From assembly GCF_030068475.1 (NCBI RefSeq), contig NZ_JAQOSP010000081.1, positions 1 to 64,000 on the forward strand: 64,000 nucleotides of DNA, given 5' to 3'. The position numbers and the translations under genes were made by a program. Positions within the stretch are counted from its first letter, which is position 1. Each line of letters begins with the position of its first letter. Shown here in pieces: positions 2,890 through 40,556 of the stretch. Source of the DNA: Roseofilum acuticapitatum BLCC-M154 (GTDB taxonomy: Bacteria; Cyanobacteriota; Cyanobacteriia; Cyanobacteriales; Desertifilaceae). The notes beneath the pieces were generated by a model. It did no database searches. It saw only the letters and a program-made list of their open reading frames with translations, and was not told the origin of the DNA.

Positions 2890-3161
2890 TAAGACCCCCC
2901 AGCAGGGAAAACGGCTCTATCTTTTTTGGCTAAAATCCGACGCTGGGGGGGTGTGGAAATTGCCCTTGAGTCTAAAATGGCTGTATGGCTTGCCCAGTGT
3001 GGCTTACAGCGATTTTAATTTTAAAGGTAGCGTCGGACTATACGGGGTAAGGGTTTCACCGATTTGGACTTGCTTTTTTACGGTGAGTGATGTATGATTA
3101 GGGGTGTGCGTCGGAAATGTACCTTGAAAACTAAATATAGTAAGGGTCTCAGGAGCCAGCA
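2890..3161 (+). promoter_or_regulatory. Putative CRISPR leader
   Basis: This 272-base AT-rich, gene-free stretch separates yghU from the first repeat. It holds a strong sigma70-like promoter pointing into the array (separate entry), an inverted repeat of C and G runs (2894-2903 with 2942-2952) and three copies of an 8-mer: TCCGACGC at 2936-2943 and its complement GCGTCGGA at 3030-3037 and 3108-3115. Leader identity is inferred from position, base composition and repeat orientation, since repeats end in ATTGAAAC as in transcribed cyanobacterial arrays. Confidence 0.6.
3070..3098 (+). promoter_or_regulatory. Candidate promoter of the CRISPR array
   Basis: A -35 box TTGCTT at 3070-3075 and a -10 box TATGAT at 3093-3098 are separated by 17 bases. 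Transcription would start near 3105 and enter the first repeat about 57 bases later. Confidence 0.6.
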
Positions 3162-4391
3162 GTTGAAACCAACATAAATCCCTATTAGGGATTGAGTTGA
3201 AACCAACATAAATCCCTATTAGGGATTGAAACTGGTGGATCACCCCCAATGGTTTAGAATATCGTGGTTGAAACCAACATAAATCCCTATTAGGGATTGA
3301 AACTGGCTTTGTGTTAACAGGCCGATTCCTACTGCACTTGCAAGTTGAAACCAACATAAATCCCTATTAGGGATTGAAACGTGAACTAGGATCAGGGCTT
3401 GGATTAGCAATGCTTGGATCAGGTTGAAACCAACATAAATCCCTATTAGGGATTGAAACATATCCGGTCTGTTGCGGATCGTTCTCATCCTTAGTTGAAA
3501 CCAACATAAATCCCTATTAGGGATTGAAACACACATAAATGAGTGTTGCAAACTCTTCAGATGGTTGAAACCAACATAAATCCCTATTAGGGATTGAAAC
3601 TGTTCGGCAGGGAAAAGATTAAACGGAAAACGAGAACGCCGTTGAAACCAACATAAATCCCTATTAGGGATTGAAACATCGAGACAATGGGCAAGCAGGT
3701 AACTGTATCTACTGTTGAAACCAACATAAATCCCTATTAGGGATTGAAACACAAATTCTGAAGGATCGCGCATAACTTCATAAAATGTTGAAACCAACAT
3801 AAATCCCTATTAGGGATTGAAACTCAAATTAGGCAATCTTCGCCTAATAATGTTCCGCGTTGAAACCAACATAAATCCCTATTAGGGATTGAAACTCCAG
3901 TGGAAGAAAGCTGTTATTCCACGACTTTGGAAACCCCGGTTGAAACCAACATAAATCCCTATTAGGGATTGAAACAATATCATCCTTAGTTGGTTGGGTT
4001 CTATTGAAGTAGAATGCGGTTGAAACCAACATAAATCCCTATTAGGGATTGAAACTCAGAGTTTGCGTATTCTGGAGTCTCTTCTTTCCCGTTGAAACCA
4101 ACATAAATCCCTATTAGGGATTGAAACTTACGGTGTTATTCAATTGTCAAGATCGAGCTATTGTTGAAACCAACATAAATCCCTATTAGGGATTGAAACT
4201 GAAGAGAATGCAGAAGTGCATAAGCGAATAATAATGTTGAAACCAACATAAATCCCTATTAGGGATTGAAACGCGTTGGGTCTACTCAACGAATCAGTAC
4301 CCTTAAGTTGAAACCAACATAAATCCCTATTAGGGATTGAAACCGACTGTCCTCTTACCACTGCTTCCACTTGGTTCGGGTTGAAACCAAC
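3162..4391 (+). CRISPR. CRISPR array, 37-bp repeats, 16 spacers, no cas genes in window
   Basis: Sixteen full identical 37-bp repeats begin with GTTGAAACCAACATAAATCC and end with CTATTAGGGATTGAAAC. They start at 3196, 3267, 3344, 3423, 3494, 3564, 3641, 3714, 3787, 3859, 3939, 4019, 4091, 4163, 4236 and 4307. The inner AATCCCTATTAGGGATT is a 17-bp palindrome that would form the crRNA hairpin. Spacers are 33 to 43 bases and all different. Both ends are damaged: the first repeat (3162-3195) lacks its last three bases and abuts the second repeat with no spacer, and the last keeps only 12 bases (4380-4391) before a dispersed element. Orientation is inferred from the ATTGAAAC 3' end and the upstream promoter. 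Repeat type suggests a class 1 (type I or III) system encoded elsewhere. Confidence 0.98.
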
Positions 4392-25992: not shown

Positions 25993-27678
25993 TTATAAAC
26001 TGGGGATACCTTTGGCGGCGATGGGCATTCGCCAGCCTGTGCCGAAGGCTCTGGAGGTGATTTTTAAGCCGGGAGGAGCTTGGCGACGCTTAAATTCTGC
26101 TCGTTTGACGAGGTGTAAAATTTTATTGATGATGGCTGGATCGTGTCCGGCAGCCGCTATGATTTCTGGGGATTGGTGATCGTGGATGAGGCGATGAAGA
26201 ATATCATCGAGGGTATCATAATCGGGGAGAGAGTCTTGATCGCATTGATCGGGTTTGAGTTCGGCGCTGGGGGGTTTAACCAGGATATTTTCGGGAATGA
26301 TTTCTTTTCCAGAACGCTGATTTAGCCAACGACAGAGGCTATACACGCGGGTTTTGGGGACATCGGCGATCGCCGCTAAACCGCCGTCCATGTCTCCGTA
26401 GAGCGTGCAATATCCGACTGCCATCTCCGATTTATTGCCGGTAGACAGGAGCAGATGACCGAATTTATTGGCGATCGCCATGAGCAGATTTCCGCGAATC
26501 CGAGATTGAATATTTTCCTCCGCCACACCGGGTTCTGTCCCCGCAAATAGGGGGTCTAGAGTGCGATCGAAGCCGCTCATTAACTCGCCAATGGCAAGGG
26601 TTTGGGTTTGAATGCCGAGATTTTGTGCCACTTGCAGAGCATCTGTAATGGAGTGTTCGGAGCTATAGGGAGAAGGCATGAGGACACCGAGAACTTGGGA
26701 GGGGGCGATCGCTTCTGCGGCGATCGCCGCCACCAAAGCCGAATCAATTCCCCCACTTAACCCCAACACAATTTTACTAAAGCCACACTTGCGAGCATAG
26801 TCTCGAACCCCTAACACCAAAGCCGACCAAATCTCTAAATTTTCATTCTCAGAAACTTCTGGAGCATCACCGATTAAATCATGCTCTTGGGAATCAAACG
26901 TCAGCACCTGAAAATCAGACTCAAATCCTTCTAACTGAGTCACAACTTTACCCGTCTGATTCACGGCCAAACTATGACCATCAAAAATCAAATCATCATT
27001 TCCCCCCACCTGATTCACATAAATAATCGGCACTTGGTAACGACTGGCGCTATAGCTTAACATTGAAGTTCTCAAAGCCGGTTTATTTAAGCTATAGGGA
27101 GAAGCCGATAAATTAACCACTAAATCTACATTTTTATCCATTAAATCCGCCAAAGGATTAATCGCATAAGAGCGTTTACCCCAAAACTGTTCATCATTCC
27201 ATAAATCCTCACAAATTGTTACCCCAATTCTTAGATCCACGCCCTCCGTATGTAGGGCCAAAACTTGACTTTCGTGACCGGGTTCAAAATACCGGTCTTC
27301 ATCAAACACATCATAGGTAGGCAGCAAGCGTTTATGAAACTCCGCTAAAATATCCCCTTGATAGAGCGCCACCACACTATTGAATAACTCTTTTCCGCCC
27401 TGTTTGCTTGCTCTTGAATTGCGAGTGACTGTGCCCACACAAACAATTAAATCATTGGGTATTTTCTGAGCCAATTCTTCAATTAAATGACCCATTTTAT
27501 CGATAAACACGGGATAATTTAACAAGTCACGGGGAGGATAACCACACAGAGATAATTCCGGAGTCAGCAACACTAGAGCGCCCTGAGCAGCCGCAATTTC
27601 TGCCGACTTCAGGATCATTTGGGCATTATTTTCTAGATCGCCAATTGTGGGATTGAGTTGAGCGATAGCAATTTTCAT
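25993..27678 (-). CDS. nadE: Glutamine-dependent NAD+ synthase
   Basis: 561 residues with two domains. The N-terminal nitrilase-type glutaminase (about 1-260) carries Glu in LLTPELSLCGYPPRDLL, Lys in LPTYDVFDEDRYFEPG and Cys in TICEDLWND. The C-terminal ATP pyrophosphatase (about 285-561) has LGLSGGIDSALVAAI and GNKSEMAVGYCTLYGD. It converts nicotinate adenine dinucleotide to NAD+ with glutamine as nitrogen donor. It is the last gene in a same-strand run nadD, NrtR-like, RNase III-like, nadE. Its start is 113 bases after the preceding gene, so a separate promoter is possible. Confidence 0.97.
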   Translation of the reverse strand: MKIAIAQLNPTIGDLENNAQMILKSAEIAAAQGALVLLTPELSLCGYPPRDLLNYPVFIDKMGHLIEELAQKIPNDLIVCVGTVTRNSRASKQGGKELFNSVVALYQGDILAEFHKRLLPTYDVFDEDRYFEPGHESQVLALHTEGVDLRIGVTICEDLWNDEQFWGKRSYAINPLADLMDKNVDLVVNLSASPYSLNKPALRTSMLSYSASRYQVPIIYVNQVGGNDDLIFDGHSLAVNQTGKVVTQLEGFESDFQVLTFDSQEHDLIGDAPEVSENENLEIWSALVLGVRDYARKCGFSKIVLGLSGGIDSALVAAIAAEAIAPSQVLGVLMPSPYSSEHSITDALQVAQNLGIQTQTLAIGELMSGFDRTLDPLFAGTEPGVAEENIQSRIRGNLLMAIANKFGHLLLSTGNKSEMAVGYCTLYGDMDGGLAAIADVPKTRVYSLCRWLNQRSGKEIIPENILVKPPSAELKPDQCDQDSLPDYDTLDDILHRLIHDHQSPEIIAAAGHDPAIINKILHLVKRAEFKRRQAPPGLKITSRAFGTGWRMPIAAKGIPSL

Positions 27679-27791: not shown

Positions 27792-28520
27792 TTATTTTTC
27801 AGCTTTCTGAATCAAGGAAATTAACTTATTTCTCACAAAAACAAATTTACCTTTTACATAATTTTTTCCCAAGGATTTTTCATCAATTTTTCCCAGATCT
27901 AGCATTTTTTCCTTGCACCCTTCTCGAATATGACATAATACATCTTTGGGCACTCCAGGAAATCGAGCATATAAATAATCGCTGGCAATTAAATTTAAGG
28001 CTGATGTCCCCAAATGAACAAAATCGCGATAGGGTTCGGCACTGCCGGGGTAATCTGGGGGAATGAGGGGATTATCAATACCAATCACTTGCCCCAAAAA
28101 CCAATCGCGCACCTGATAAAAATTACAATCGAGGTAAATCATACCGGTGAGCAATTTGAGGAATTGTCCTAAATGGATCAATCGTTCATCGCCCCAGCGT
28201 TCGGGATGATCGACTCGAATTTGTATCCAATCGGTGACTTCTAACTGATCGGCTAATTTTCCCAGGGTTTTCGGCTCTAGAAATTCAATCCAGGCTTTGG
28301 GTCGTTCATAGCAGCAGTCAGCCGCAATCATCTGTAAAACGGCTTCTCCAAGGAATAAGAGGCGATCGCCTGATTCATCGAGAGCTTTGCCTTGCATTAA
28401 GGCTCGACCCGATTTCAGCACTTGCCAAAGATATTCCTTTTCATTAAACTGGTAACGAATTGTAACTTCAATCCGTTCGGCTTGATGGACTTGTCCGGGG
28501 TTATCGTAGATTTTAGTCAT
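27792..28520 (-). CDS. RNase III-fold-like protein in NAD cluster
   Basis: 242 residues. Two internal segments resemble the RNase III signature helix: GDRLLFLGEAVLQMIAADCCYER (about 54) and RDFVHLGTSALNLIASDYLYARFPGV (about 169). In RNase III the pattern is N-E-R-L-E-F-L-G-D; here the first copy has D, L and E at the three acidic positions and the second has none. It would be a single-chain pair of RNase III-like folds, probably not a normal dicer. No dsRNA-binding domain is seen. It is 13 bases after the NUDIX gene on the same strand. Fold is a motif-level inference; function unknown. Confidence 0.5.
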   Translation of the reverse strand: MTKIYDNPGQVHQAERIEVTIRYQFNEKEYLWQVLKSGRALMQGKALDESGDRLLFLGEAVLQMIAADCCYERPKAWIEFLEPKTLGKLADQLEVTDWIQIRVDHPERWGDERLIHLGQFLKLLTGMIYLDCNFYQVRDWFLGQVIGIDNPLIPPDYPGSAEPYRDFVHLGTSALNLIASDYLYARFPGVPKDVLCHIREGCKEKMLDLGKIDEKSLGKNYVKGKFVFVRNKLISLIQKAEK

Positions 28521-28533
28521 GCGATCGCACTCA

Positions 28534-29268
28534 TCAAATAAACACCATAGGTTTATCTTTCAGTAAATCGAACGCTTGTGCATCAAATCGATAAAGGCTG
28601 GCTGGTCTCCCTGCTCCCCGTGAGGCTTTCACCCCTGTATCGTATAGGAATCCTAACTTCAGCAAGCGAGCGCGGAAGTTAGAATAGTCTGAAAAATTTT
28701 CCCCTAACACCGTAGTGTAGAGCTGATACAAGTCGTTGAGGGTGAACATCTCCGGTAGGACATCGAAGGCCACGGGACTATATTCCAATTTGTTGCGTAA
28801 ACGTCTGTAGCCATATTCTAGGATCTGATTATGATCAAATGCTAGGTCTGGCACTTGATGAATGGGATACCAAGCAATGCCACTGACTCCATCGGCAATC
28901 AGTTGAGCTTCATCAAAACGCACGAGGGCAAAGTAACTGACGGAAAGATATCGGACTCCATATTGATCGGGAGCTTCCCTGGGGTCGCGTCCTGGGTCGC
29001 CAAAGGTATAGAGTTGCTCTAGATAGAGATTTTGGGCGCGAATTTTCTCTGAGAGAATGCGATAGGCGGCTTGTTCGAGGGATTCGGAGCGACGGACAAG
29101 GGTTCCGGGTAAACTCCATTGATTGAGATAGGGGTCTTCATGGCGCATCACCAAGAGGACGAGGAGTCGGTTGAGGGCGCTATCAACGGAAAAGATGACG
29201 TTATCTACGCCCACCTTAAAATCAGCTAACGGCTCTTTGTGAGTTGGTTTGGAATGGCTCTCTGGCAT
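28534..29268 (-). CDS. nrtR: NrtR-like NUDIX regulator
   Basis: 244 residues from ATG 29268 ([11 protein letters not shown]). The N-terminal NUDIX-like domain (about 15-140) has [39 protein letters not shown]; the catalytic Nudix box is imperfect (G...REL/xE is not complete), as in NrtR, where it senses ADP-ribose. The C-terminal domain (about 150-244) is the NrtR winged helix: [37 protein letters not shown]...[10 protein letters not shown]. NrtR is a repressor of NAD genes in bacteria. It overlaps nadD by 47 bases. The regulated site may be the inverted repeat in the nadD and pncB promoters. Confidence 0.82.
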
Positions 29269-29827
29269 GATACAACTGCTCCCGATGGATGTAATCCTGG
29301 ATGGGAGGCGTAATAACTTGGGTCTCCTTTCTTTCACGATACGCTGTTGAGGACACAGGTGGCACATCAAAATCGGCGATCGCCACTTTTCCTCCCAATT
29401 CGGTGAGCGCTTGCACTTGCTCCGAGGCGATCGCATACCCCGATCGCTCTACAATGAGAACTTCGACTTGCTGCAATAAGGTTTTGATTTGATACCACTT
29501 GGGCATTTGGGCAATTAGATCGGAGCCAACAACTAGGATAAACTGGGTTTCAGGCCATAGTTGGCGGGCGACATGGACGGATTCTAGCGATCGCGAATAA
29601 CCCAATTGGGGATACAAGCCAATATTGTCATAGCCCTCTTTGAGGTCTTCGATCAACAACTCCAGCATCGCCAGACGATGATCGAGGGGGGTTTGATGGT
29701 CTTTGAACGGGTTATTGGAAGCCCAAACCGCCACATAATCATAATATTGGCTCAACCATTCGAGAATGGCTCGATGTCCGTGGGTGGGCGGATCGGCGCT
29801 AGTTCCAAAAAGGGCAACAGTGTTCAT
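29222..29827 (-). CDS. nadD: Nicotinate-nucleotide adenylyltransferase
   Basis: 201 residues. The nucleotidyltransferase signature is [22 protein letters not shown] (the (T/H)xGH motif appears as THGH), followed by [27 protein letters not shown] and SSTAYRERK (the ISSTxxR-type motif). It adenylylates nicotinate mononucleotide to form NaAD, the substrate of NadE. It is the first gene of the cluster; its upstream region holds a consensus promoter and a 23-bp inverted repeat. Confidence 0.95.
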
Positions 29828-29910
29828 GGGTAAAAGGTAATGGGGAATAGGGAATGGGGAATGGGGAATGGATCGTTCGCCATCCTCCTTCTCAGGTTAC
29901 TCCTCCTCTG

Positions 29911-29941
29911 ATTATAGTGCAATAAACCATAATACTGTCAA
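29911..29941 (-). promoter_or_regulatory. nadD promoter with candidate NrtR operator
   Basis: On the minus strand TTGACA (29936-29941) and TATAAT (29911-29916) are both perfect boxes, separated by 19 bases, which is long. Overlapping them is an imperfect inverted repeat ATTATGGT-N7-ACTATAAT (29911-29933). The same arrangement, nearly base for base, stands upstream of pncB (35825-35855). That conservation supports a shared operator; assignment to NrtR is inference. Confidence 0.65.
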
Positions 29942-30100
29942 CCTGTTTTTTATGAAATGACCTTAAAATAGCCTGAAAACCAAAATCAAACCCCTTATTT
30001 GCCTCCTAACTCCACTCATTTATAGTTTTTAGCACCAATATGCTCATCCCCCCACTCATGATTGCTAAATGCCAAAGTCACAATTTTTAGTTGTTGGCTT

Positions 30101-32340: not shown

Positions 32341-34326
32341 TTAATCCATCATCCGCCAGCGCCGCAGTTGGTTAACAACTTGGTCGATACTGTGACCGTA
32401 GCCGAGTAAGCCGGTGGTTGATAAGGTCACTGGTTGGTTAGGAATGAAGGCGACAATGCCGATAACTTCCTTAGTTTCAGCGTGGAGAATAGGGCCGCCA
32501 GAGTTACCGTTGTTCAGCCGTGCATCTAGGTTGAGTCCAGTAGAATCTGCACTGCTGATGATTCCTTGAACAACATCCCAGTCCCTATCAACATTCAGTT
32601 GCTTGGGATGACCAATAATCACCACTTCTTGGGCGCGGGGAATGTAACCCGAATAGAATTTCAGGGGGCGGATGGTGTCGTCGTCTTCTCGGATGCCTTC
32701 AACTTTAAGGATGGCTAGGTCGAGGAGATCGTCGGGGTCGGTAATATGTTCCAGGGTGGCACTGTAGCGGGGACGTTGGTTATAGTCTAAGCTGCTGAAC
32801 AACTGGACTTCAATGGTGTCGCTGGGACGGTTTGCACCAAAGGGTTGGAGGACATGGCGGTTCGTGATAATCCAGATGGTATCTCCTTCTCGCTTGAATA
32901 TCCAACCTGCCCCATAATCTGCACCCAGAGCCTGTGGGTCAGTGCTTTCAGGAATAATAATGTGGACAGTGGAGCGCAGTTCATAGACCAGGGGTTCGTC
33001 TTCTGAACTGGGAACATGGGCTAGGTCGCTGGTAGGAGGAGGAGTTTTCTGTTGTTCGAGTAGACGCTCGGCTTCCCGGAGGTTATTGCGGGCGGTGGCA
33101 AAGTTCGGGTCAAGTTGAATGGCTTGGTTGTATTCGGTAATGGCGGCTTGCAGGTCACCTTGTTGTTGTAGGATATAGCCGAGATTATTGTGAGCCAGGG
33201 TATGGACACTCGCTGGTATTGCGTTTTGATCGGGTAAACTGAGGGCGCGGCGATAAGCCTGCTCTGCCTCTGTGAATTCCTTTTGCTCTATAAAAATACT
33301 GCCTAAACCGATGTGAGGAGAGGCAAATTGCGGGTTGAGTTCAATGGCGCGGCGATAGGACTCCACCGCCTCGGTCAGTTTGTTTTGGTCTCTGAGAGCA
33401 ATGCCCAGGTTGTAGTAAGCAGTGGCATATTGGGGATTGAGTTCAAGTGCCCGGCGATAGGACTCCACCGCTTCCGTCAGTTTGTTTTGGTCTCTGAGGA
33501 CATTACCCAGGTTGTAATAAGCAGTGGCATATTGGGGATTGAGTTCAAGTGCCCGGCGATAGGACTCCACTGCTTCCATCAGTTTGTTTTGGTCTCTGAG
33601 GACATTACCCAGGTTGTAGTAAGCAGTGGCAAACTGGGGATTGAGTTCAAGTGCCCGACGATAGGACTCCACCGCCTCCGTGAGTTTGTTTTGGTCTCTG
33701 AGGACATTACCCAGGTTGAGGTAAGCAGTCGCATATTGGGGATTGAGTTCCAGTGCCTGGCGATAGGACTCTACCGCCTCCATCAGTTTGTTTTGGTAGT
33801 AGAGGGCATTGCCCAGGTTGTTGTAAGCGATCGCATCGATCGCATCTTCGGGGTTCAGTTCAATAGCGCGGTTATAGGACTGCACCGCTTCCATCAGTTT
33901 CCCTTGGTCTCTGAGGACATTGCCCAGGTTGAGGTAAGCAATGGCCAATTGGGGGTTGAGTTCAAGTGCCTGGCGATAGGACTCTACCGCCTCCATCAGT
34001 TTCCCTTGGTCGTAGAGGACAATGCCCAGGTTGTTGTAAGCGATCGCATATTGGGGATTGAGTTCCAGTGCCCGGCGATAGGACTCCACCGCTTCCATCA
34101 GTTTTCCTTGGTTTTTGAGGGCAATGCCCAGGTTGTAGTAAGCGATCGCATTGTCCGGTTGTTCTCGAAGGACTCTGAGCCAAATTAATTCAGCTTGGGC
34201 ATAATTCCCGGCCCTTTGGGCTGCGTTGCCCTGTTTCGATAACTCGTCAATGGTCTGTGCAACCGTGGCTTGGGGAGTCACAACCACGGCCAGAGTGAAC
34301 CAAAATACCCAGAACTTGCGAAACAC
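32341..34326 (-). CDS. Secreted TPR protein with active trypsin-like domain
   Basis: 661 residues, GTG start at 34326. A signal peptide (about 1-24) is followed by about eleven TPR units (25-420), many almost identical because the DNA is a 102-bp tandem repeat (see 33338-34160). The trypsin domain (440-661) has the intact triad: H491 (TNRHVL), D536 (LDLAIL) and S609 (GNSGGP). It is likely a periplasmic Deg-type or HtrA-like serine protease whose TPRs present substrates. A near copy lies at 38975-40360, a degenerate relative at 6204-7847. No PDZ domain is visible. Confidence 0.9.
   Translation of the reverse strand: MFRKFWVFWFTLAVVVTPQATVAQTIDELSKQGNAAQRAGNYAQAELIWLRVLREQPDNAIAYYNLGIALKNQGKLMEAVESYRRALELNPQYAIAYNNLGIVLYDQGKLMEAVESYRQALELNPQLAIAYLNLGNVLRDQGKLMEAVQSYNRAIELNPEDAIDAIAYNNLGNALYYQNKLMEAVESYRQALELNPQYATAYLNLGNVLRDQNKLTEAVESYRRALELNPQFATAYYNLGNVLRDQNKLMEAVESYRRALELNPQYATAYYNLGNVLRDQNKLTEAVESYRRALELNPQYATAYYNLGIALRDQNKLTEAVESYRRAIELNPQFASPHIGLGSIFIEQKEFTEAEQAYRRALSLPDQNAIPASVHTLAHNNLGYILQQQGDLQAAITEYNQAIQLDPNFATARNNLREAERLLEQQKTPPPTSDLAHVPSSEDEPLVYELRSTVHIIIPESTDPQALGADYGAGWIFKREGDTIWIITNRHVLQPFGANRPSDTIEVQLFSSLDYNQRPRYSATLEHITDPDDLLDLAILKVEGIREDDDTIRPLKFYSGYIPRAQEVVIIGHPKQLNVDRDWDVVQGIISSADSTGLNLDARLNNGNSGGPILHAETKEVIGIVAFIPNQPVTLSTTGLLGYGHSIDQVVNQLRRWRMMD
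33338..34160. repeat. 102-bp tandem repeats encoding TPR units
   Basis: GTTC(A/C)AGTGCC blocks recur at 33441, 33543, 33645, 33747, 33858, 33960 and 34062, mostly 102 bases apart, one gap being 111 because of a 9-base insertion. Identity between units is high enough for unequal recombination. Confidence 0.9.
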
Positions 34327-34443: not shown

Positions 34444-35787
34444 CTATCCCCCCATCTCCCCGATCAATTGTTGTAGTTTAGGGGAAATTTCCATGGGTAC
34501 AGGAACGGGATCTTCTAATTGGCGACAGGAGGGGGGAAGACTGAGGACAGAGGTGCGGGTACGCTCTTGGATCAGATCGAGGGTATCGGGAAGAGTGACG
34601 AATTCTCCGGCTTTGAGCAGGGGTTGCAAGAGGGGGGTTTCTTCGGGTTCGGGGGGTTCATGGATTAAACCGAGGCGATCGCCGATACATTCTCCCTCAT
34701 GGAGTCGCCGAAAGATTTGTTTGCGTCCAGGATAGCTGACTTTATTGGTGGAGCGCTTCATCACTGGTTTGTCTGCAATTTCCACCAGTTTATAGACTCC
34801 GTTCACTGGGGAACCGGTGACCAATTTTGTGCCAATTCCATAGCCATCAATACAAGCACCGGCTTGATTTAAGCGTTGCATTTCGTATTCGTCAATGTCT
34901 CCACTGACAAAAATGGGCGCTTGGGGCAAGATTTGGCGGATGTTCTGGGATAGAGTAACCAGATCTCCGGAGTCTAGGCGAATACCGGCAACGTCTAGGG
35001 TTCCCGCTTTTGTTTGCTCGGCTAACCGTTCGGCTGCTGCCAAGCTGTCGTAGGTGTCAATTAACAAAGGAGCGCCGGGAAAATAGCGGTAAAAGGCTTG
35101 AAAGGCGGCATCTTCTGCACCTTCGCAGGCGGCGATCGCCATTACGAGAGAATGAGCCATGGTTCCTGCGGGGTTGCGACCCAATTTTAGGGCGGCTAAT
35201 ACATTGGATGTGGCATCCATTCCCCCGGCGATCGCCGCTCGTGCTGCCCAGAGTGCCCCCTGGGGACTAAAAGCCCGTCTTGTGCCAAATTCCAGGATCG
35301 AGGCATCCTCACCCGCCATATCCCGCATTCGGGCGGCTTTGGTGGCGATGAGGGTTTGATAATTTAAGGTATTGAGTAAATAGGTTTCCACCAGTTGAGC
35401 TTGCCAGAGGGGAGCTTCAATTCTCAAGAGGGGTTGATTGGCAAAAATAGCGGTTCCTTCGGGTACAGCCCAAACATCGCCAGTAAAGCGAAACTGGGCT
35501 AATTTTGTCCAAAACTCGGCAGGGGCATGGTCAAAAATACCCGTTGCTCGGAGTGCTTGAATCTGATCGGGCGTAAATTGCAGGTTTTGCAGATACTCCA
35601 GCGCCGGTTGCACTCCCATGGCGATCAGGTAACCGAAACCTGGAGGTAAACGGCGGGTGAACAGTTCAAAGCTGGCGCGGTGTTCTGCTATGCCTTCGCC
35701 GATGTAACAGGCGTTCATGGTGAGCTGATAGAGATCGGTGAGTAGGCTGTTGTCTGCGAGGTTGAGGGTGAGTAAGGAGTGTTGCAT
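34444..35787 (-). CDS. pncB: Nicotinate phosphoribosyltransferase
   Basis: 447 residues. Key segments are LADNSLLTDLYQLTMNACY, LFTRRLPPGFGYLIAMG, the catalytic region DASILEFGTRRAFSPQGALW, and RLDSGDLVTLSQNIRQIL with FVSGDIDEYEMQRL and DGYGIGTKLVTG (phosphate loop). The family makes nicotinate mononucleotide from nicotinate and PRPP, the first step of NAD salvage, feeding NadD. Its promoter carries the same 23-bp inverted repeat as nadD. Its C-terminal tail is longer than needed and ends near PPSCRQLEDPVPVPMEISPK. Confidence 0.95.
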   Translation of the reverse strand: MQHSLLTLNLADNSLLTDLYQLTMNACYIGEGIAEHRASFELFTRRLPPGFGYLIAMGVQPALEYLQNLQFTPDQIQALRATGIFDHAPAEFWTKLAQFRFTGDVWAVPEGTAIFANQPLLRIEAPLWQAQLVETYLLNTLNYQTLIATKAARMRDMAGEDASILEFGTRRAFSPQGALWAARAAIAGGMDATSNVLAALKLGRNPAGTMAHSLVMAIAACEGAEDAAFQAFYRYFPGAPLLIDTYDSLAAAERLAEQTKAGTLDVAGIRLDSGDLVTLSQNIRQILPQAPIFVSGDIDEYEMQRLNQAGACIDGYGIGTKLVTGSPVNGVYKLVEIADKPVMKRSTNKVSYPGRKQIFRRLHEGECIGDRLGLIHEPPEPEETPLLQPLLKAGEFVTLPDTLDLIQERTRTSVLSLPPSCRQLEDPVPVPMEISPKLQQLIGEMGG

Positions 35788-35824
35788 TTTGGCGATCGCC
35801 TCCTTTAAGGCTGCTTCCCTTCCT

Positions 35825-35855
35825 ATTATAGTAGATTAAACCATAATTGTGTCAA
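35825..35855 (-). promoter_or_regulatory. pncB promoter with candidate NrtR operator
   Basis: Minus-strand TTGACA (35850-35855) and TATAAT (35825-35830), 19 bases apart, overlap ATTATGGT-N7-ACTATAAT (35825-35847). 29 of the first 34 bases equal the nadD upstream block. The start codon is about 31 bases downstream of the predicted transcription start. Confidence 0.65.
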
Positions 35856-35881
35856 CCTATTTTTATAAAAACCACCTTTAC

Positions 35882-37174
35882 TCAGGGATTGGGGGGAACT
35901 TTGGGGTCATTCTCCGGAAGCGTGACAAACAAATAGGGCAATAAAAACCCAATGACTGCCGCAGCAAATGATAGGGCAGCCGTAATTTGATCGGGACTCA
36001 GATAACGACTGAGCCAACTGGAGTTTAAGGTTTGTACGGGATAATCTGGATCGAGTCCTACAGTCAACTTCTTGCTTTTCCCCGCTAACCTAACTTGCAG
36101 CCCTACAGGATCACAATTGAGGTCAAAATAGCGCAATTTCTCAATATCCTGAGCATCTGCTGTGGTTAAAAATTGATTGTCCTGTATCGTTAGAGTTTTA
36201 TCATTCATACGGACTTCCCCTTTCAGAATAGAAGAGTGAGGGAAATCATTGCGAGAATCTCCCACGCGATCGATCCATTTTAAGCTCACATCAGTTACCG
36301 GTAAATTTCTCCCAATCCATTCCGGTTCTGTCTGCATGTTTTCCCTAAAATTTAGCGATAACTGGGTTGAAGAAAACAGGGCTAATTCAGGATTGAGGGG
36401 CGCATTAGGAGTAAATTGAAGTTCGGTGATGGGGGCTTCTAATCCCTCTATTTTGATATTTTCAAGGACTAAAATAAAGAGTTCTGGATTGAGTTTGAGT
36501 TGTAGAATAGCCGGTTTTTGGGGGGACTCATTGGTAGGAAAGTTCAACCCCAGATTCAGTTGAGTTTCCGGAGGATAGGAACGATAACTGAGATTGACTT
36601 GAGTGGTTGAATTTAAAGCCAGCCGATCGATCGCTAAACCTTGAGCAGTTGAAGGATAGAGTAACAGGTGACTGTTGGCTTCAGAAAAGGTAAACGAGAG
36701 TTCTGTTTTTTGGCTTAAAATTGAGTTGATTTGAGGATTTTCTGGACTGGTAAAAGTTCCCCTTAAGGTTAGAGTTTCTGAGGAGGTTTGTAAACTTAAA
36801 GAGGTTAGATCGTCGATATTTTGCAGCAAGAAGCGGGAGTTGGGTTCCGGAGTCGTGAATTGAATATGACTGATGAGTAAGGTGGCTTCAAAGTTTTGGG
36901 TTCCGGGAATAAAAAAGTGGGTCAGCAAGATAATAAAAGATACGGAACATAGGATAAATGCAGCGATTTTATCTTTTTTACTTGTCAAGCGTTTGAAGGG
37001 AATGGGGGAGACTTCAGCGAGGATCAGAATGATTTTGAAAAAGCCGACTATGGGTAAATATATCAATACCGACAGAATCCAGGCAAGCCCATCGATAAGG
37101 TGAGACCAAATAGGGCGATCTCGGTCAGATTTTGAGGCGTTCTGTTTGGGGTGGTTTCGGTTGGAAGATTTCAT
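35882..37174 (-). CDS. Membrane protein of unknown function
   Basis: 430 residues. Two hydrophobic segments near the N-terminus (about 30-52, LAWILSVLIYLPIVGFFKIILIL, and about 70-90, AAFILCSVSFIILLTHFFI) are followed by a long beta-rich extracytoplasmic region with many SFTFSEAN/LQLKLNPEL-type strands. A third membrane segment lies near the C-terminus (ALSFAAAVIGFLLPYLFVTLP). I recognise no family. It sits 94 bases downstream of pncB's start region, on the same strand, and before another envelope protein. Confidence 0.6.
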   Translation of the reverse strand: MKSSNRNHPKQNASKSDRDRPIWSHLIDGLAWILSVLIYLPIVGFFKIILILAEVSPIPFKRLTSKKDKIAAFILCSVSFIILLTHFFIPGTQNFEATLLISHIQFTTPEPNSRFLLQNIDDLTSLSLQTSSETLTLRGTFTSPENPQINSILSQKTELSFTFSEANSHLLLYPSTAQGLAIDRLALNSTTQVNLSYRSYPPETQLNLGLNFPTNESPQKPAILQLKLNPELFILVLENIKIEGLEAPITELQFTPNAPLNPELALFSSTQLSLNFRENMQTEPEWIGRNLPVTDVSLKWIDRVGDSRNDFPHSSILKGEVRMNDKTLTIQDNQFLTTADAQDIEKLRYFDLNCDPVGLQVRLAGKSKKLTVGLDPDYPVQTLNSSWLSRYLSPDQITAALSFAAAVIGFLLPYLFVTLPENDPKVPPNP

Positions 37175-37199: not shown

Positions 37200-37928
37200 C
37201 TAAAACCAGGCTGGATTATGATAAAATAGAATAATTCGGGTATCCGTTTCTTTAGGTTGTCCTGGTTTTTGTTGTTCCATCACTATATAGAGTTCGTAGC
37301 GTCCCGCAGGAGCATTACCAAATGTCCAAGTAAAGGGGACTTGTCCAGTTTTGGGAATTTTTTGGGAAATATTATGGTAAATTCTACCGTCTTTGCGAAT
37401 TTGTACAGTGGGGAAAGTGGTACGTGCATTGCCGACAAATAGGGTGAATTCGTAGCGTTGAGAAGAGGGGTCGAGAATAACGGGATAGTAGATAGTTTCG
37501 CTCTTTTGGGTCAGATATGCAGTGGCTCGCAGACTATCGGGAGCAACTCTAGCTCGTTGTAAAATGGGCTGGGTATCTAAGTTATATTCCATACCATTGC
37601 GGATAGGCAAGAAGCGGTTGAGGTTGTCGAGCAGGTAACCGCGATCGAACGATTGCATGATAAATTGGGGCTGTTGGTTAATGCCGGGAATGCGGAGGGT
37701 GAGGGGGTTGGGATATGCCGCAGGTGCGCCCGTGGTAAAGGATACTAAGCGAATGCTGGCGCTAATGTCGTGATTGACTAAGCCTTCGCAGCGATCGCCC
37801 CTATCCATATAGGCTAGACTATTACGGTTACCCGTGGGACAAGCCAAAGCCGGTGTAGCGCTGAGGGTAACCGCGAGAGATAGGAGCGTTAGGAAAATTT
37901 TGGTATTTCTGCAAGCGGACATCAACAT
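37200..37928 (-). CDS. Secreted protein of unknown function
   Basis: 242 residues with a signal peptide (KIFLTLLSLAVTLSATPALA, about 10-29). Two cysteines at about 30 and 48 bracket a short polar loop. The mature part is beta-rich, with FTLFVGNARTTFPTVQIRKDG and WTFGNAPAGRYELYIVMEQQ near the end, resembling a periplasmic beta sandwich. No known motif is visible. It is 25 bases upstream of the membrane protein gene on the same strand and may form an operon with it. Confidence 0.55.
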   Translation of the reverse strand: MLMSACRNTKIFLTLLSLAVTLSATPALACPTGNRNSLAYMDRGDRCEGLVNHDISASIRLVSFTTGAPAAYPNPLTLRIPGINQQPQFIMQSFDRGYLLDNLNRFLPIRNGMEYNLDTQPILQRARVAPDSLRATAYLTQKSETIYYPVILDPSSQRYEFTLFVGNARTTFPTVQIRKDGRIYHNISQKIPKTGQVPFTWTFGNAPAGRYELYIVMEQQKPGQPKETDTRIILFYHNPAWF

Positions 37929-38974: not shown

Positions 38975-40360
38975 TTAATTCATCACCCCCCAGCGCCGCA
39001 ACTGTTCAACCACCGAATCAATGGGGTGGCCGAAACCGAAACCCCGCGTCGCGATAGGATTTTCGGGGATGTCTGGTGTGGCGATATTGGGGTCGGTGTC
39101 GATACCTTCAGTGGTAATCAGTTGGATGACAATACCGATGACTTCCTTGGTTTCCGAGTTGAGAATGGGGCCGCCAGAATTGCCAGAGGCGAGGTTTGCG
39201 TCTAGGGTCATCTTATGGCTGTTGAAGTTAACATTGGTGACGTTGCCGATGACCACATTCCAGTGGTCGCTCAGATTATAGGGATGACCGATAATCGTCA
39301 CCGGTTGGGTGCGCGGAATAGCACCGGAATGGAATTTCAGGGGGCGGATGGTGTCGTCGTCTTCTCGGATGCCTTCCACTTTAATCACCGCTAGGTCGAG
39401 GGGGTCTCCAGGACGGGTAATGTGTTCCAACGTCGCTGGGTAGGGGGTACGTTGGTTATAGTCTAGGGTGCTGAAAAACTCCACTTGAATGGTTTCGCTG
39501 GGACGGTTGCCGTGTTGAATGACATGGCGGTTGGTCATAATCCAGAGGGTATCCCCTTCGCGCTTGAAGATCCAACCCGTGCCATAGTCTTTACCCTGGC
39601 TGTTTTCGGTAATGATGCGAACCGTGGAGCGCATTTCATAGACCAGGGGTTCGTCTTCTGGGCTGGGAACATAGGCCAGGTCGCTGGGTGGGGGTGGGGT
39701 GCGCTGTTGGGCCAGGAGGCGCTCGGCTTCCTGGAGGTTGTTTTGGGCAGCGACAAAGTTGGGGTCAATTTGAAGGGATTTTTTGTATTCGGCAATGGCC
39801 CCTTGCAGGTCGCCTTGTTGTTGCAGGGCATAGCCGAGAGCATTGTGAGCGAGGGTATGGGCGCTGGCTGGTGTGGCTTTTTCATCGGGTAAACTGAGGG
39901 CGCGGCGATAGGACTGCACTGCCTCCGGGAGTTTCCCTTGCTGTCTGAGGGCAAGGCCCAGGTTGTTGTGAGCGCCGGCAAATTCGGGGTCAAGTTGAAG
40001 AGCGCGGCGATAGGACTGCTCTGCCTCCGTCAGTTTCCCTTGGTCTCTGAGGGCATTGCCCAGGTTGTTGTGAGCGCCGGCAAATTCGGGGTCAAGTTGA
40101 AGGGCGCGGCGATAGGACTGCACTGCCTCGGTGAGTTTCCCTTGGTTTCTGAGGGCATTGCCCAGGTTGATGTGAGCGCCTGAATTATCTGGGTCTTCTC
40201 GGATGACTCTGAGCCAAATTAATTCGGCTTGGGCATAGTTGCCAGCACTCTGGGCTGCGTTGCCCTGTTTCCATAACTCGTCAATCGTTTGGGCAATGGT
40301 CGCTTGGGGAGTGACGACCACGGCGAGAGTTAACCAAAATGCCCAGAATTTGCGAAACAC
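38975..40360 (-). CDS. Secreted TPR protein with active trypsin-like domain, paralogue
   Basis: 461 residues, GTG start at 40360, the same start codon as its paralogue at 34326; the frame is open upstream but without relatedness. A signal peptide (VTPQATIAQ end, about 1-24) is followed by about six TPR units (30-215), fewer than the 661-residue relative. The trypsin domain (235-461) keeps H279 (TNRHVI), D322 (LDLAVI) and S395 (GNSGGP). Signal peptides and domain ends of the two genes are almost identical, pointing to a recent duplication. There is no PDZ domain. Role presumably periplasmic proteolysis. Confidence 0.9.
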   Translation of the reverse strand: MFRKFWAFWLTLAVVVTPQATIAQTIDELWKQGNAAQSAGNYAQAELIWLRVIREDPDNSGAHINLGNALRNQGKLTEAVQSYRRALQLDPEFAGAHNNLGNALRDQGKLTEAEQSYRRALQLDPEFAGAHNNLGLALRQQGKLPEAVQSYRRALSLPDEKATPASAHTLAHNALGYALQQQGDLQGAIAEYKKSLQIDPNFVAAQNNLQEAERLLAQQRTPPPPSDLAYVPSPEDEPLVYEMRSTVRIITENSQGKDYGTGWIFKREGDTLWIMTNRHVIQHGNRPSETIQVEFFSTLDYNQRTPYPATLEHITRPGDPLDLAVIKVEGIREDDDTIRPLKFHSGAIPRTQPVTIIGHPYNLSDHWNVVIGNVTNVNFNSHKMTLDANLASGNSGGPILNSETKEVIGIVIQLITTEGIDTDPNIATPDIPENPIATRGFGFGHPIDSVVEQLRRWGVMN

Positions 40361-40364
40361 GGTA

Positions 40365-40493
40365 TCAATTAACAATGAACAATGAACAATGAACAATGAA
40401 CAATGGGGGTCGATCGCTATTGTAGTGGATTTTTGCGGGTGGGGGGTTTTCATCTCCCCATCCCCCCATCCCCCCATCCCCCACTCCCCACTC
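40365..40493. repeat. Short tandem repeats upstream of the paralogue
   Basis: GAACAAT-type units (40365-40405) and CCCCCAT-type heptamers (40451-40493). The conserved block 40408-40430 sits between them. Confidence 0.7.
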
Positions 40494-40556
40494 ATTATTA
40501 CTAAACGCAACAGAATATAAAGAATAGTAGCGTAGCGATCCCACTTGTCAGAGAAT

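Follow-up and report, generated by a model that had tools for sequence, protein, structure and literature searches.

In Roseofilum acuticapitatum BLCC-M154 the genes pncB and nadD share a strand, with pncB 4.6 kb upstream, and each of the two genes is preceded by almost the same stretch of DNA. This raises the question of why two separated genes of NAD metabolism share a promoter, and of which regulator acts on it. We analysed the window, by which we mean the whole stretch of 64,000 nucleotides, together with the complete genome, its Roseofilum relatives (G001 to G005) and further loci from the same bacterial class. The features on which the argument rests are collected in Table 1.

The shared promoter block and the neighbouring regulator

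The nadD upstream region (29911-29944) and the pncB upstream region (35825-35858) are identical at 29 of 34 bases on the plus strand. Read on the minus strand, both blocks have the form TTGACA-N19-TATAAT, with an inverted repeat, ATTATGGT-N7-ACTATAAT, that ends on the -10 box. This likeness, the two boxes at 19 bases and the repeat over the -10 had been described in an earlier note on this DNA, and on recounting all of them were present. The shared site is larger than was noted there: aligned locally, the two upstream regions extend over 74 columns in this genome, 81 in G005 and 134 in G003, the inverted repeat spans about 25 bp and not 23 (A-WTTWTGGT-N7-ACYATAAW-T in the class loci), and a further site at 30018-30042 had been overlooked. 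Scanning all 5,220,084 bases of the genome for exact ATTATGGT-N7-ACYATAAT returned two matches only, the nadD and the pncB site, so the shared block is real and chance is ruled out. Allowing up to three mismatches gave 55 forward and 53 reverse matches genome-wide, no excess over the 61 and 67 of a backwards control, and the loose pattern alone is therefore unreliable. The same 31-bp block stands before pncB in the relatives, and also before nadD in Roseofilum genomes G003 and G005.

Table 1. Genes and predicted regulatory sites discussed in the text; coordinates refer to the window except for the nadA site.
Feature	Position	Strand	Evidence and remarks
nadE, NAD+ synthase	25993..27678	-	NF010588, 740 bits (cut-off 479)
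RNase III-domain-like gene, flanked by nrtR and nadE	27792..28520	-	TIGR02191, 32 bits (under the cut-off of 166)
nrtR, Nudix-like and winged-helix regulator	28537..29268	-	PF21906, PF19368, PF00293; start codon chosen by us, open frame from 29436
nadD, nicotinate-nucleotide adenylyltransferase	29222..29827	-	NF000842, 251 bits (cut-off 167)
Proximal NrtR operator of nadD, predicted	29910..29934	-	Right arm holds -10 box TATAAT 29911-29916; TTGACA 29936-29941; matrix 25.1 bits
Distal weaker NrtR-like operator CATATTGGTGCTAAAAACTATAAAT, predicted	30018..30042	-	13.5 bits, outscored in the window by the two proximal sites only
pncB, nicotinate phosphoribosyltransferase	34444..35787	-	NF006696, 602 bits (cut-off 503)
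Proximal NrtR operator of pncB, predicted	35824..35848	-	-10 box 35825-35830; TTGACA 35850-35855; matrix 28.9 bits
Gene without family match, end abuts the pncB promoter	35882..37174	-	Open frame; no family match
nadA operator-like site of this genome	G000:C63:53708-53730		Sequence TTTTTAGTGAAACAAACTATAAT; like site at the same place in Roseofilum relatives

That a NAD regulator is encoded in the nadD operon proved correct, with a Nudix plus winged-helix gene of the NrtR type directly after nadD. Given the close spacing of nadD, nrtR, the RNase III-like gene and nadE, we infer that the four are read as a single transcript. In the six Roseofilum genomes examined, nrtR and nadE are separated by an RNase III-domain-like gene, which also occurs there, at 32% identity, in G056; in 153 other annotated loci nadE follows nrtR and the RNase III-like match is absent. 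Related TPR-repeat proteins at 32341-34326 and 38975-40510 flank pncB, the first in the gap between pncB and nadD, and the second also weakly matches HtrA-type serine protease models.

The regulator combines an N-terminal Nudix-like domain (PF00293, 46.0 bits, cut-off 21.1) with the C-terminal NrtR winged-helix domain (PF21906, 71.8 bits, cut-off 27), the AraR_C model PF19368 scoring higher at 162.9 bits. It reached 123.2 bits against the cut-off of 400 for NF050029, an NCBIfam model of one curated equivalog and not the definition of the family. Its nearest relatives in the PDB are 5bs6 (BtAraR, the best) and 3gz5, which we take to be a Shewanella-type NrtR chain, the structure listing saying only MutT/nudix. 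An RDPRE arginine is invariant in the 12 aligned proteins, and we read the last arginine of RDPR as the counterpart of Arg98 of Shewanella NrtR. According to PMC4666351, Arg98 contacts ADP-ribose and its equivalent in AraR is Gly89. Compared by eye with the Nudix box consensus given in the same source, GX5EX7REUXEEXGU, the catalytic box is degenerate at the first G, the first E after R, the second E of EE and the last G.

AraR of Bacteroides, the arabinose-responsive member of the NrtR family, resembles our protein as the best structural relative and through the best Pfam winged-helix model. We nevertheless rejected an arabinose regulator of the AraR type, which has arabinose targets and a glycine in the place of Arg98, whereas the gene context here is that of NAD and the arginine of RDPRE is kept. 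These features support the assignment of the protein encoded after nadD to the NrtR type. NrtR is a known repressor of NAD genes (PMC4666351, PMC6800001), and ADP-ribose is reported in PMC4666351 to suppress DNA binding by the Shewanella and Synechocystis NrtR proteins.

The operator across the class and the split operon

Of the 388 genomes of the class, 292 have an NrtR match, and the class loci were taken from the NrtR matches listed among these 292. Among 219 annotated loci, drawn from two collections so that some genomes are counted twice, the gene order was pncB-nadD-nrtR-nadE in 147 and pncB-nadD-nrtR in 45, and one operon is therefore the usual state there. Enough pncB upstream DNA was available in 195 of the 219, leaving 174 distinct loci after identical upstream regions had been removed. 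The scoring matrix was trained on the proximal sites of the first 56 loci (a usable pncB start was present in 56 of the 60 retrieved), so that scores on those 56 are not independent; the other 118 lay outside the training, yet share families with it.

The site recurs in related genomes, an operator standing upstream of pncB in 168 of the 174 distinct loci, seven of the 174 having been chosen for their match to the pattern. The six loci with no proximal site of at least 18 bits are L102, L136, L228, L231, L236 and L238, and in L102 a site lies so close to the start codon that the search range used misses it. In the class the operator reads WTTWTGGT-N7-ACYATAAW, preferentially preceded by A and followed by T, and this pattern occurs in 240 of the 388 genomes, against a backwards control that was mostly zero and at most two per strand. 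Among 20 matches examined that fell outside the known operon or had no known place beforehand, 16 lie before nadA, three before pncB and one was not assigned.

Among loci whose genomes were chosen by kinship (L167-L182 except L169), an operator precedes nadA, identified by NF006878 at 473 bits, in 14 of 15; one duplicate genome was removed for the nadA count, and 16 loci fetched by pattern served only to judge the absence of a distal site, not the share of loci with a site. Operators of inverted-repeat form at NAD genes thus co-occur with the regulator, before pncB (168/174) and before nadA (14/15). In this genome the nadA site was accepted as a member of the regulon because a like site is conserved at the same place in relatives. 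It was the only one accepted, the other matches with two or three mismatches being no better than the backwards control, and a site-like stretch at 37370-37394 was taken as chance since it lies inside an open frame. The predicted regulon of this genome would then hold at least three promoters, those of pncB, nadD-nrtR-nadE and nadA. The earlier suggestion of a compact NAD regulon was right in kind, and nadA must be added to it. Family f34 (63 small genomes by eye count) showed no operator pattern, and none of the 292 NrtR matches belongs to it.

Outside family f33, 48 loci were compared; the operator's right arm carries T at column 17 in 41 of them and at column 19 in all 48. From the left arm one would predict C at column 17 and mostly A at column 19; both changes create TATAAT, and so the right arm seems to double as the -10 box. 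The earlier note had also made a functional point of the 19-base spacing. A -35 box matching at least five of six positions stands at 19 bp in only 3 of the 48 loci, though all 48 keep the operator (at least 14 of 16 arm positions), so the spacing is a detail of this lineage. On the same grounds, a -35 box and spacing that vary across the class while the operator stays, we dropped a MerR-like reading in which the regulator untwists the 19-bp spacer. The conserved feature appears to be the overlap of the right arm with a TATAAT-like -10, joined in many loci by the phased distal operator described below. An alternative reading with 16 or 17 bp between the boxes, taking TACTAT or TACCAT as the -10, suits pncB here and the f33 loci, and nadD poorly. 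In all eight f33 loci (L080, L087, L091, L095, L101, L103, L113 and L120) TTGACA and the CATAAW arm are exactly 20 bp apart, which places TACCAT at 17 bp, and their promoter may therefore sit 3 bp shifted relative to the operator.

Among the Roseofilum genomes, G001, G002 and G004 have pncB and nadD adjacent behind one promoter; in this genome, G003 and G005 the two genes are apart, with a promoter each. Within the 134-column alignment of G003, the score of the upstream flank outside the core was reached by none of 2000 letter shuffles, and the downstream flank was not significant (p 0.34). The flanks of this genome and G005 scored weakly, with p of 0.04 and 0.08 upstream and 0.29 and 0.15 downstream. 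The pncB side of the shared region is shortened here by the gene at 35882-37174, which is also present in G005, has no match in the stretches examined from G001-G004, and occupies the place of the distal site of those relatives. Promoter copying thus appears clear in G003 only, the flanks in this genome and G005 being weak. We concluded that in this Roseofilum lineage the whole promoter was probably copied after the pncB-nadD operon split, the one at nadD being a copy of that of pncB, which would be why the two genes share it.

A distal site in helical phase with the operator

The weaker site at 30018-30042 falls inside the copied region, 108 bp upstream of the proximal operator of nadD, which makes 10 turns at 10.8 bp. 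Counterparts score 20.3 bits at nadD of G005, 15.8 and 11.6 bits at nadD and pncB of G003, and 16.3, 12.4 and 4.0 bits at pncB of G001, G002 and G004. The pncB operator of this genome has no distal partner, no other place within 400 bp upstream exceeding -1.7 bits. Across the class a distal site of at least 8 bits at 50-300 bp upstream was found in 34 of 55 training loci and 35 of 113 new loci, in total 69 of 168 pncB promoters. Matrices with permuted columns (100 trials) found a mean of 0.48 and a maximum of 4 in the 55-locus set, and a mean of 2.13 and a maximum of 8 in the 113-locus set. At the remaining pncB promoters the distal site is absent or degenerate. What distinguishes the distal sites from the proximal ones is that column 5 is A in 38 of 69 and that the right arm resembles TATAAA, with T at column 17 in 51 and at column 19 in 53 of the 69, and they appear to be weaker versions of the same palindrome.

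At nadA promoters, 29 distinct loci with a site, there was no second site of at least 7 bits at 50-300 bp, and 26 of the 29 have a single operator. The nadA promoters of L158, L161 and L162 carry adjacent double operators 22-24 bp apart, about two helix turns.

We asked whether a distal site might instead serve a divergently oriented neighbour as its operator. Judged by the longest open frame upstream, the neighbour shares the strand in 35 loci and is divergent in 21, none was found in 11 and 2 were too short to judge; with 35 of the 56 judged neighbours on the same strand, this is not a general explanation. Fourteen loci score better in reverse orientation, several of them at 189-210 bp. In L097, L117, L213, L215, L216, L223 and L234 the sites lie 189-210 bp upstream of the pncB operator, favour the reverse orientation and are poorly phased, and such sites may serve another gene. 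CRISPR repeats gave weak matrix scores and were set aside; a CRISPR-like array occupies 3160-4330, with about 17 copies of GTTGAAACCAACATAAATCCCTATTAGGGATTGAAAC, mostly 70-80 bp apart.

The distances between proximal and distal sites cluster around 75, 86, 97, 108, 118, 130, 141, 152 and 162 bp. With the six Roseofilum rows excluded from all phasing tests, the first set (n=34) gave a best period of 11.05 bp with nR2 of 19.9. The new loci (n=32) had a best period of 11.25 bp and, at the fixed 11.05 bp, nR2 of 9.8 (about 5e-5), rising to 13.1 for their 26 spacings of up to 180 bp. Unique distances alone (n=37) gave 11.9. Eight spacings above 180 bp (189-278) weaken the phase, and sites beyond about 185 bp are poorly phased. 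Fixing the phase at zero gave a fitted period of 10.8 bp, and 51 of 58 spacings of up to 180 bp fell within 0.2 turn of an integer, where 40% would be expected. A further 96 loci whose best distal match is below 8 bits, many of them Nostoc relatives with a degenerate distal site, were also phased at 11.05 bp, with nR2 of 20.4 against a maximum of 14.7 among 200 permuted matrices. Roseofilum itself shows spacings of 86 bp, 107-109 bp and 130 bp, close to 8, 10 and 12 turns, the 86-bp case scoring 4.0 bits only.

Because the two locus sets have families in common, they lack phylogenetic independence. When only independent pairs were tested, p was 0.12 for all 21 pairs and 0.0097 for the 18 whose spacing stays within 180 bp. 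For the group of loci, a pair of operators in helical phase is present as in the lac system, the result from the independent pairs being weak.

Proposed loop-assisted repression and the competing explanations

Taken together, we consider the best joint explanation to be that these are NrtR operators, that an operon was split and its promoter copied, and that repression is assisted by a loop held by two NrtR dimers, to which we would give a probability of about two in three. The ancestral state would be a pncB-nadD-nrtR-nadE operon behind one promoter; this operon would have split in the present Roseofilum lineage, with a copy of the whole promoter now driving nadD. Since each operator contains the -10 box, NrtR bound at the proximal operator should cover it and block RNA polymerase. 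A second dimer on the weaker distal operator, on the same face of the DNA, would meet the proximal dimer, so that the roughly 70-180 bp between them would be looped and the proximal dimer held on the promoter with raised occupancy. By analogy with published NrtR proteins, ADP-ribose from NAD breakdown would free NrtR from both sites. Here nadD-nrtR-nadE would keep two operators 108 bp apart and pncB the proximal one only. The genes, the sites and their conservation, the promoter copy and the phasing are what can be read from the DNA; from them we infer NrtR binding, repression, looping and the effector.

A plainer account holds that single operators over the -10 box block RNA polymerase and that the distal sites are decaying remnants or unimportant. 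It has on its side that NrtR repression of NAD genes is already published (PMC4666351, PMC6800001), as well as the lone operator at nadA in most loci and at pncB here. We think it unlikely, as it leaves unexplained both the excess of distal sites and the helical quantisation that separate locus sets show for them.

It is less likely again that the distal site is an activator position, from which NrtR or another protein touches RNA polymerase while the proximal site represses. Because the -10 box lies inside the operator, phasing to the proximal operator is also phasing to the promoter, as activation would require; however, spacings of 75-176 bp are, on general knowledge, long for direct contact, and the distal motif is that of the repressor. 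The TATAA-like right arms of most distal sites mean that some could be second promoters with an operator of their own, giving two NrtR-controlled starts, but independent promoters require no helical phase, and as an account of the distal sites we regard this as very improbable. We give almost no weight to the phasing being a by-product of the ~11-bp A/T periodicity published for cyanobacterial genomes (PMC4132750): permuted matrices on the same promoters were mildly in excess (mean nR2 1.8 where 1 is expected), but the real value of 28.5 (n=66) lies above all 400 of them (maximum 14.0), 65 weak next-best matches of the true matrix gave 0.4 at 11.05 bp (7.9 at their own best period), and the start codon lies at no periodic distance from either site (nR2 0.01 and 0.04).

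The loop would resemble that of lac repression in its unequal operators, in spacings from tens of base pairs to about 180 bp and in its helical phase. The two repressor families are unrelated, and the quantisation here is across natural species whereas that of lac comes from engineered constructs. Table 1 of PMC1762422 lists an in-vivo lac helical repeat of 11.08 bp in one data set and 11.60 in another, and our free-phase period of 11.0-11.05 bp resembles the former.

A NAD-gene regulon under NrtR is of a known kind, and the ADP-ribose effect is already published for the Synechocystis protein. As in the NrtR regulons of Shewanella, Synechocystis and Mycobacterium smegmatis, the regulator is a Nudix-like protein with a winged helix and its targets are NAD synthesis and salvage. 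The M. smegmatis site given in PMC6800001, the 23-bp inverted repeat GTTTTCGA-N7-TCGAAAAC, has a like N7 centre and differs in the letters of its half-sites. What sets the present case apart is the operator overlapping the -10, the phased second operator of pncB in many loci, and the promoter copy after the split. RegPrecise 3.0 holds a cyanobacterial and an NrtR collection (PMC3840689). In a literature search for an NrtR or Nudix repressor with looping, paired or cooperative sites, or helical phasing, no report was among the matches listed, the founding NrtR paper and most subscription papers being outside its scope.

The locus therefore offers what would be a clear case of a split operon re-wired through promoter copying, and a sequence record of probable DNA looping across a bacterial class, in a regulator family for which our search found no report of it. 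We think it reasonably probable that cyanobacterial NrtR is a loop-forming repressor, that in many families of the class the auxiliary operator of the pncB operon shifts between species by whole turns (about 7 to 16), that these promoters record the in-vivo helical repeat (about 10.8-11.05 bp), and that the de novo gene nadA, with its single operator, is loop-free, so that the branches differ in their response. On this reading, cyanobacteria should switch NAD salvage more sharply than they switch de novo synthesis. If true, the helical repeat in vivo could be estimated from natural promoters, and the salvage and de novo branches would respond to one signal with different curves.
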